A program made the translations under genes and the position numbers. DNA of 64,000 nucleotides, taken from Flavobacteriia bacterium 40-80 (GTDB taxonomy: Bacteria > Bacteroidota > Bacteroidia > Flavobacteriales_D > Crocinitomicaceae). The notes beneath the pieces were generated by a model, which was not told the DNA's origin, did no database searches, and saw only the letters and a list, made by a program, of their open reading frames with translations. Shown piece by piece: positions 50,388 to 52,412 of the stretch (positions are counted from its first letter, which is position 1; each line of letters starts with the position of its first letter). Where the stretch lies: the NCBI GenBank assembly GCA_001899145.1, contig MKVF01000006.1:186001-250000 (forward strand), read 5' to 3'.

Positions 50388-50881
50388 AAACTATTAAGAT
50401 TGAAATTAAATGGGCGCTTATTTTCTCGGTCATGGCGTTGTTATGGATGGTGCTGGAAAAGCTTTCAGGGCTTCACGGGAAATACATTGACTACCACCTC
50501 TACCTGACAAACCTGTTTGCAATTCCTGCAATATGGATTATGGTGCTTGCGCTAAAAGACAAAAAGAAACATTCTTACGGCGGACAGATGAGCTACCCGC
50601 AAGGGCTGATTTCCGGAATTATTCTATCTGTGATCATCGCTCTGCTGAGCCCGTTGACACAATGGATCACTTCTTATGTGATCACCCCGGAATATTTTCC
50701 GAATGTGATAAAACGTTCCGTAGAGCTGGGATATTATAAAACAACCCAAGAGGCAACCGCGCACTTTAACTATCCGAACTACGCAGTCCAGGGAGCAATC
50801 GGAGCATTAATTATGGGAATTATCACCACTGCAATTGCCATGATTTTTATACAGACAAAGAAAAAGCCGCAGGCTCTTTAA
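50384..50881 (+). CDS. DUF4199 family membrane protein
   Basis: A 165-residue membrane protein with four hydrophobic helices: IEIKWALIFSVMALLWMVLEKLSGLHGKYIDYH, FAIPAIWIMVLALKDKK, GLISGIILSVIIALLSPL and GALIMGIITTAIAMIFIQTKK. The pattern matches DUF4199, a Bacteroidota family of unknown function. Ends the small-protein block. Confidence 0.86.
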   Translation: MKTIKIEIKWALIFSVMALLWMVLEKLSGLHGKYIDYHLYLTNLFAIPAIWIMVLALKDKKKHSYGGQMSYPQGLISGIILSVIIALLSPLTQWITSYVITPEYFPNVIKRSVELGYYKTTQEATAHFNYPNYAVQGAIGALIMGIITTAIAMIFIQTKKKPQAL

Positions 50882-50962
50882 ACGAAAACATAACATAAAT
50901 CCGTATAAAAGCAGGAAAAGCAAAAAATATGAAATGAGCTGCTGCACACGAAATTATTTTCA

Positions 50963-50970
50963 TACATTTG
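50963..50970 (+). promoter_or_regulatory. -7 box upstream of the fluoride riboswitch (TACATTTG)
   Basis: Exact TAnnTTTG match about 15 nt before the riboswitch core, so the transcript would begin near 50975 and include it entirely. Confidence 0.5.
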
Positions 50971-50983
50971 CAGCATATTAAAA

Positions 50984-51048
50984 AAGGAAATGGTGTTCTT
51001 CCTTACCCAACCGTCCCGATAGCTATCGGAGCTGATGACGCCTGATTA
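50984..51048 (+). ncRNA. Fluoride riboswitch (crcB motif)
   Basis: Matches the crcB-motif layout: GGAAATGGTGTTCTTCC (stem GGA/TCC enclosing the ATGGTGT loop), then ACCC..., then a hairpin with a perfect palindromic CCGATAGCTATCGG (51012-51030), and GCTGATGACGCCTG at the end. GGTGT can pair with ACGCC to form the pseudoknot of the family. Position 33-100 bp before a CLC-type antiporter gene agrees: fluoride binding should switch on expression. Sequence alone does not show whether control is at transcription termination or translation; no clear terminator follows. Confidence 0.83.
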
Positions 51049-51080
51049 ATTAAGTATTGAATAATTTAATCAGGTGAGCT

Positions 51081-52412
51081 ATGTCTAAAAACAAACAAAA
51101 ATCATTTAGTAAAAAATCAGCGCTTTTCCTGAAGCTGTTCTTCCGGAATTATCCTGCTGTTCCATACATGCTTAAGTGGGCTTTCATAAGCTTATTTATC
51201 GGAGCCTGTATCGGAAGCGCATCTGCCGGATTTCTGATCTCGCTGGACCGGGCAACCGATTTTCGTGAAAGTCATTTATGGCTGATCGCTTTGTTACCTG
51301 CGGGTGGTTTTCTTATCGGGCTTTTATATTATTATTTCGGAAAAGATGCGGAACAGGGAAACAACCTTCTGATTGACACCATTCACCAGCCACAAAAAAT
51401 TATTCCTTTCCGGATGGCTCCGTTCGTTTATATCGGAACCATTGCAACACATCTTTTCGGAGGCTCTGCCGGCCGTGAAGGAACTGCTTTACAAATGGCA
51501 GGAGCTATTGCCGACCAGTTTTCCAAACCATTCCGGCTTTCTGCATCAGACCGGAAAATTCTTATCATATCAGCCATTGCAGGCGGATTCGGGTCGGTAT
51601 TCGGAACGCCGTTAGCCGGTGCCGTTTTCGGTTTGGAATTCTTTCTTTTAGGACGGATCCGTTACAATGCCGTTTTCCCTGCTTTCTTAACCGCAGTCAT
51701 AGCAGATCTGGTAACACGGCTCTGGCAGGCACATCATACCACCTATTCCATCAGCTTTGTCCCTGATATTTCATTTTTAAATCTCCTGTATGCAGTCATC
51801 ACCGGTATTTTTTTCGGTCTTTGCGCTGCTGCATTCAGCAAGCTCATTCATAAAGCAGGCGCTATCTTCAAATTAAAAATTGCATATCCGCCATTACGGC
51901 CTTTTGCAGGCGGAATTATAGTAGCGGCAGCCGTCTGGGCAATCGGAACAACAAAATATATCGGCCTGGGAATTCCTACCATCATCGGCTCTTTTGATCA
52001 GCAATTACCGGCTTATGATTTTATTCTGAAAATGGCCTTTACCATCATTACGCTGTCAGCAGGATTCAAAGGCGGAGAAGTAACACCTTTGTTTTTCATC
52101 GGAGCAGCTTTGGGAAACGCTTTAAGTTATTTTATTCCTTTACCGACAGGACTTTTGGTCGGAATGGGCTTTGTTGCCGTTTTCGCAGGCGCCACCAACA
52201 CACCAATTGCCTGCAGTATCATGGCTATTGAGCTTTTTGGCGCCAAATGTGGTGTGTATGTCGCTGTTGCCTGCGTGGTCTCCTATTTAATGTCCGGGCA
52301 CAACAGTATCTACGACAAACAAATAATTGGCGAGCCGAAAAACCAGAGATTTTCAGACCATAAGGGAAAACGGATCGATGAGCTCAAAAATAAATCGTAC
52401 AGATCACCATAA
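51081..52412 (+). CDS. CLC-type fluoride/proton antiporter (EriC-F-like)
   Basis: A 443-residue CLC membrane protein. The gating glutamate is in GREGT (131-135, Glu133). Where chloride transporters have the GSGIP selectivity loop this one has EQGNNLLID (about 91-99), as in the fluoride-specific CLC-F branch, and GGFGSVFGTPLAG and GGEVTPLFFIGAALGN are intact. With a fluoride riboswitch directly upstream, its job is very likely to expel F- in exchange for protons. It ends near the convergent neighbouring gene (9-bp overlap of ends). Confidence 0.9.
   Translation: MSKNKQKSFSKKSALFLKLFFRNYPAVPYMLKWAFISLFIGACIGSASAGFLISLDRATDFRESHLWLIALLPAGGFLIGLLYYYFGKDAEQGNNLLIDTIHQPQKIIPFRMAPFVYIGTIATHLFGGSAGREGTALQMAGAIADQFSKPFRLSASDRKILIISAIAGGFGSVFGTPLAGAVFGLEFFLLGRIRYNAVFPAFLTAVIADLVTRLWQAHHTTYSISFVPDISFLNLLYAVITGIFFGLCAAAFSKLIHKAGAIFKLKIAYPPLRPFAGGIIVAAAVWAIGTTKYIGLGIPTIIGSFDQQLPAYDFILKMAFTIITLSAGFKGGEVTPLFFIGAALGNALSYFIPLPTGLLVGMGFVAVFAGATNTPIACSIMAIELFGAKCGVYVAVACVVSYLMSGHNSIYDKQIIGEPKNQRFSDHKGKRIDELKNKSYRSP

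Follow-up and report, generated by a model that had tools for sequence, protein, structure and literature searches.

The window analysed here (the whole stretch of 64,000 nucleotides, from Flavobacteriia bacterium 40-80) carries on its plus strand a genuine fluoride riboswitch, located in the leader ahead of a gene for a predicted member of the CLC-F family. The features of the locus are as follows.

50963 to 50970, plus strand: TAnnTTTG box TACATTTG, likely a -7 promoter element (from its sequence, the box being common among the leaders of relatives)
50977 to 51051, plus strand: fluoride riboswitch aptamer, RF01734 (cmscan)
50986 to 51002, plus strand: P2 hairpin (GGAA / TTCC) with the pseudoknot loop (cmscan alignment and fold)
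50992 to 50996, plus strand: 5' strand of the pseudoknot, GGUGU, pairing with 51038-51042
51003 to 51008, plus strand: extended P2-P3 linker TTACCC, common to a subgroup (pattern CCTTACCCAACCG...CTGATG in class genomes)
51013 to 51032, plus strand: P3 arm, with two pairs, a C-A mismatch, five pairs and an AGCU loop (fold)
51016 to 51029, plus strand: 14-nt perfect palindrome CCGATAGCTATCGG, the apical part of P3, in single copy in the genome assembly
51038 to 51042, plus strand: switch strand ACGCC, the 3' strand of the pseudoknot; its last four nucleotides double as the base of the hairpin in the platform
51039 to 51049, plus strand: platform (sequestering) hairpin, 5' arm CGCCTGATTAA (MFE -13.3 kcal/mol, 11 pairs)
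51066 to 51076, plus strand: platform hairpin, 3' arm TTAATCAGGTG, separated by 4 nt from the ATG (fold; compensatory changes in relatives)
51081 to 52412, plus strand: predicted CLC-F fluoride/proton antiporter of 443 aa (Pfam Voltage_CLC, 2.1e-73; PDB 6d0j, E 5.4e-57)

A cmscan search of the 64-kb window gave a single match above a family's cut-off, RF01734, which scored 42.2 bits against a gathering threshold of 34 (E 1.2e-9 in a 3-kb scan and 2.6e-8 over the whole window). This score had been set beforehand as the check on the initial annotation, which had proposed a fluoride riboswitch from a crcB-type core and a -7 box just upstream of it; the core is indeed present, with GGAAATGG at 50986-50993 and GATGACGCCTG at 51034-51044, and so is the box. 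The aptamer starts 6 nt 3' of the box and ends 29 nt upstream of the CLC ATG, thus lying within the 5' leader of the CLC-F gene. It resembles the crcB motif of RF01734 in its core, P2, P3, pseudoknot and position before a fluoride exporter gene, and differs from it by the TTACCC insertion in the P2-P3 linker and by the long palindromic P3. The combination of riboswitch and CLC-F gene is of known type, and the leader is predicted to bind fluoride.

Forty leaders were extracted, 36 of which (the window's included) entered the counts of the box, pseudoknot, competing helix, unpaired probability and opening energy. Left out were L009 and L017, which have no CLC match, L032, whose leader is the same as that of L031, and L067, whose CLC start is more than 120 nt downstream; L013-L016 and L018 had been excluded as falling below the Rfam cut-off. 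The TAnnTTTG box, which we take to be the Bacteroidota -7 element, stands 5' of the aptamer in 29 of the 36 leaders and cannot be due to chance, since letter shuffles gave an expectation of 1.93. The pseudoknot GGUGU/ACGCC consists of five pairs and relatives show changes on both sides of it; the second pair is GC in 21 leaders and AU in 15 (of 36), so that the pseudoknot covaries.

The palindrome in P3 had been described as a 14-nt perfect self-complement longer than usual in this arm. The self-complementarity is exact, and no such palindrome arose in shuffles of the window, even with one mismatch allowed; its unusual length holds only mildly, the P3 arm measuring 18 nt against 8–20 (median 11) in the 40 aptamers. 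Another of these, L038, has a 12-nt palindrome in P3. As a repeat of its own genome the palindrome was rejected, having a single exact copy; allowing one mismatch added none, and allowing two added seven (three for a control pattern). The same 14-mer is strongly over-represented in the class Bacteroidia, where 35 of 99 genomes hold 243 copies (up to 32 copies; one copy of the reversed control). Within the family it occurs in 30 of 60 genomes with 118 copies, against none of the reversed control and none of another palindrome in the same 60. A single repeat family was rejected as well, because the flanks of 30 sites, taken from 20 fetched stretches, are of several kinds; some flanks do recur, in one genome or in more than one, and 25 of the 30 sites extend to 18–38 nt. 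A literature search on GATAGCTATC, judged by titles, found no prior description of the palindrome.

The protein had been singled out as a CLC with GNNLLID replacing the GSGIP loop, and GNNLL does begin at residue 93, followed by GREGT from 131 and GEVTP from 332. Of the CLC-F signatures given in a review (GNNLI/GMGLI, GREGT/V and GEVTP; PMC11139923), the last two fit exactly and the first is one residue off, ending in Leu and not Ile. Among solved structures the window protein is closest to three of CLC-F (E 5.4e-57 to 5.6e-56), the top one being 6d0j from Enterococcus casseliflavus, whose alignment covers residues 34-414. The gating glutamate E118 and the GEVTP glutamate E318 of that structure are both kept; at the selectivity position it has Met79 and the window protein Asn (GNN), the GNNLI type in the terms of PMC11139923 (residue numbers follow PMC12035849; those of the 6d0j chain are 3 higher). 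The protein might in principle be an ordinary chloride CLC, the riboswitch having decayed or serving another ion, and the best of the four matching NCBIfam models are indeed those of chloride ClcA/ClcB, although all four fall far under their cut-offs (best 109 versus 482 bits). We regard this as very improbable: the best chloride CLC structure trails far behind 6d0j at E 2.8e-11, Asn stands at the position of the chloride-coordinating Ser with the GEVTP glutamate conserved, the aptamer scores above the Rfam cut-off, and crcB adjoins relatives on two of the six plasmids fetched (from Hymenobacter and Comamonas). The gene therefore appears to encode a CLC-F family protein, as first proposed, which would act as a fluoride/proton antiporter. 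The same assembly has two further CLCs, and no CrcB match was found in it.

Fluoride riboswitches above the RF01734 cut-off were found in 12 of 149 genomes, the window's own included, and at 27 of 52 CLC loci examined (13/20, 2/12 and 12/20). The 63 CLC places comprise 30 given as loci (with that of the window), 20 fetched and 13 left out. Among plasmids, 296 records matched and 15 relatives were listed, six of which were fetched; all six have the riboswitch. On two of them, those of Hymenobacter sp. GOD-10R (L114) and Comamonas sp. C11 (L116), riboswitch, CLC gene and crcB lie in one stretch, which thus holds both exporter types. The TTACCC-linker pattern defines a smaller set, present at eight places in 6 of 395 class genomes (reversed control, none) and in none of 36 genomes from the genus to which G336 belongs; all eight places are just 5' of CLC places among the 63. 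The leaders of Flavobacterium akiainvivens and F. potami share with the window the aptamer, the TTACCC linker, the CCTGATTAA/TTAATCAGG hairpin and the 6 nt between AGG and ATG, and differ in that their P3 arms are shorter, at 11 nt, and lack the palindrome. Two aptamers have no CLC match in their loci. One (L017, 1501-1567) is an orphan just under the cut-off at 33.9 bits, with a TTACCC linker and no CLC behind it at E 1e-3 in the 3-kb locus, and its genome contains a further fluoride riboswitch (L012); the other (L009, 1501-1572; 40.9 bits) lies ahead of a 338-aa reading frame, and its locus gave no match to the window CLC.

The CLC gene and its leader look horizontally acquired. In a tree of 64 CLCs built by a quick method, the nearest neighbours of the window protein are CLCs from other families (f60, f33 and Flavobacterium) that are linked to a riboswitch. 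Its own family contributes ten such CLCs to the tree, all placed elsewhere, eight of them grouped (marked 98 in the tree), L011 nearby and L012 apart; the forks beside the window protein are weakly resolved. This tree is without a reference chloride CLC and includes L108 (branch length 5-10) as the only paralogue from the window's genome, L110 being left out for want of a match to the window protein. L066 shares the TTACCC linker and has a distant CLC (44% identity). As for the neighbouring genes, the five best-ranked plasmid matches of a polysaccharide gene come from Parabacteroides, Segatella, Phocaeicola and Bacteroides at 42–45% identity, which together with the promoter box suggests a host of the Bacteroidia, and the DUF4199 protein found no match among plasmids.

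The reading as a riboswitch with a CLC-F gene thus stands; what the initial annotation overlooked is the expression platform. The CGCC of the switch strand ACGCC is the base of the 11-bp platform hairpin and hence is shared with the pseudoknot. The platform region folds at -13.3 kcal/mol, while its best fold with ACGCC held reaches -5.8. Taken alone, the platform is matched or bettered by only 7 of 200 shuffles; the fold of the whole leader is unexceptional (z -1.55), being equalled or bettered by 14 of 200 shuffles. For the crcB riboswitch of Bacillus cereus the platform is described as a terminator (PMC11077080), and the hairpin of the window might likewise terminate transcription, either intrinsically or through Rho: pseudoknot and hairpin overlap in that transcriptional riboswitch just as they do here, and predicted terminators are reported to overlap many crcB motifs (PMC2864571). 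The platform of the window covers the start region, however, and the hairpin is followed by AGCTATGTCTAAAAA, which has no T run. No terminator-like site was found on the plus strand at 50850-51200, on which ground the intrinsic model was rejected. Moreover, in the 17 leaders with a significant helix (below) the end of the 3' arm falls from -6 to +14 relative to the start codon, the upper bound being set by construction since the search reached +15. We consider a platform acting on transcription unlikely overall.

A helix that pairs the switch strand with the start region reached p 0.003 in the window (1000 dinucleotide shuffles) and p <=0.05 in 17 of the 36 leaders, where about two would be expected. 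In L050 and L038 the competing helix reaches beyond the start codon and takes in coding sequence, with 3' arms that end at +13 and +14, respectively. A stretch like the platform 3' arm plus start region, TTTAATCAGGAATATG, also occurs in L034 (1352-1367), where it lies 5' of the aptamer within the promoter region.

To assess covariation, the arms of 15 GCCT leaders were aligned to each other with CCU/AGG as anchor, L077 being excluded for lack of the AGG; as the anchor, these pairs count for nothing as evidence. In the resulting helix, 89.6% of cells are paired (73.8 in shuffles), the covariation score is 0.418 (0.158) and 19 cells are changed on both sides (7.6), values that 0 of 500 shuffles reach in each case. 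All six slid versions of the helix score lower, and 3' arms re-dealt among the leaders matched the observed 91 of 120 pairs once in 20000. The number of pairs with two-sided change (5 versus 4.3) and of pair types (9 versus 8.9) shows no excess over shuffles, and because the 15 rows are related, kinship can beat shuffles without structure and inflates the shuffle test. Compensatory variants are seen in the alignment, GATTA/TAATC being replaced by GCAA/TTGC in L066 and L075 and by ACGAATTA/TAATTTGT in L071. Outside the 15-row set, a plasmid of Aureibacter tunicatorum has CCTATTTT/AAAATAGG, ending one base before the annotated ATG. Since pseudoknot and platform helix both covary, the switch strand keeps two partners, as a switch requires. 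We consider this good evidence for a platform that covers the start site.

Switching was modelled with two readouts, first the mean unpaired probability of the start region and afterwards the energy needed to open it. With ACGCC held, the unpaired probability barely moves in the window (0.34 to 0.37); it rises by more than 0.1 in 7 of the 36 leaders and falls by as much in 3. Opening the region from -15 to +5 in the window is predicted to cost 10.8 kcal/mol when the leader is free and 4.8 with ACGCC held. The median saving is 4.9 in the 16 GCCT leaders versus 1.1 in the remaining 20; in a control that held five bases farther upstream instead, the median saving was 0.17 (largest 3.9). Of the two, only the modelled opening energy shows the switch clearly. 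The aptamer could still be real and the downstream hairpin incidental, control following another route such as mRNA stabilisation. The near-constant unpaired probability would agree with this, as would the 19 of 36 leaders without a helix at p 0.05, which also mean that the platform is not universal. The compensatory changes and the opening energies speak against it, and we hold an incidental hairpin to be unlikely.

A covarying helix together with the lack of a terminator-like site means that fluoride most likely turns translation on by breaking the helix. We therefore think it likely that the leader is a translational ON switch, its start site hidden without fluoride and exposed with it. In the absence of fluoride, ACGCC (51038-51042) would quit the pseudoknot and the freed CGCC would close the 11-bp hairpin 51039-51049/51066-51076, 4 nt short of the ATG, shutting out the ribosome. 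Once Mg2+ and fluoride are bound, ACGCC would remain paired to GGUGU (50992-50996); the hairpin would then be deprived of its G-C base, the start region would open, and CLC-F would be made and export fluoride.

This control probably works without a Shine-Dalgarno (SD) sequence. In two studies (PMC9976891, PMC6847099), the ribosomes of Bacteroidia are described as failing to recognise the SD, and initiation as tuned by the structure before the start codon, low structure and adenines being favoured. Since these ribosomes do not read the SD, the hidden element would be the landing site itself; there is no need to read the AGG of the 3' arm as an SD, since pairing with CCU accounts for it. More broadly, we lean towards the view that the fluoride riboswitches of Bacteroidia act on translation without any SD, the 3' strand of the pseudoknot closing the landing site so that the same five bases both sense and block, with a three-way covariation keeping both pairings, and that the TTACCC-linker subgroup moves between families with its CLC-F gene.

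A translational eriC-F riboswitch exists in Pseudomonas syringae. For a platform of the present kind we found no description in the literature searched, which covered few subscription journals. The leader, of about 110 nt, should be easy to test, because the competing helix is short, adjoins the start codon and comes with natural compensatory variants (15 leaders). The parts of this system are known ones and the useful point is its output stage, which bears on how translation may be controlled by riboswitches when, as in this phylum, the SD goes unread by the ribosome.
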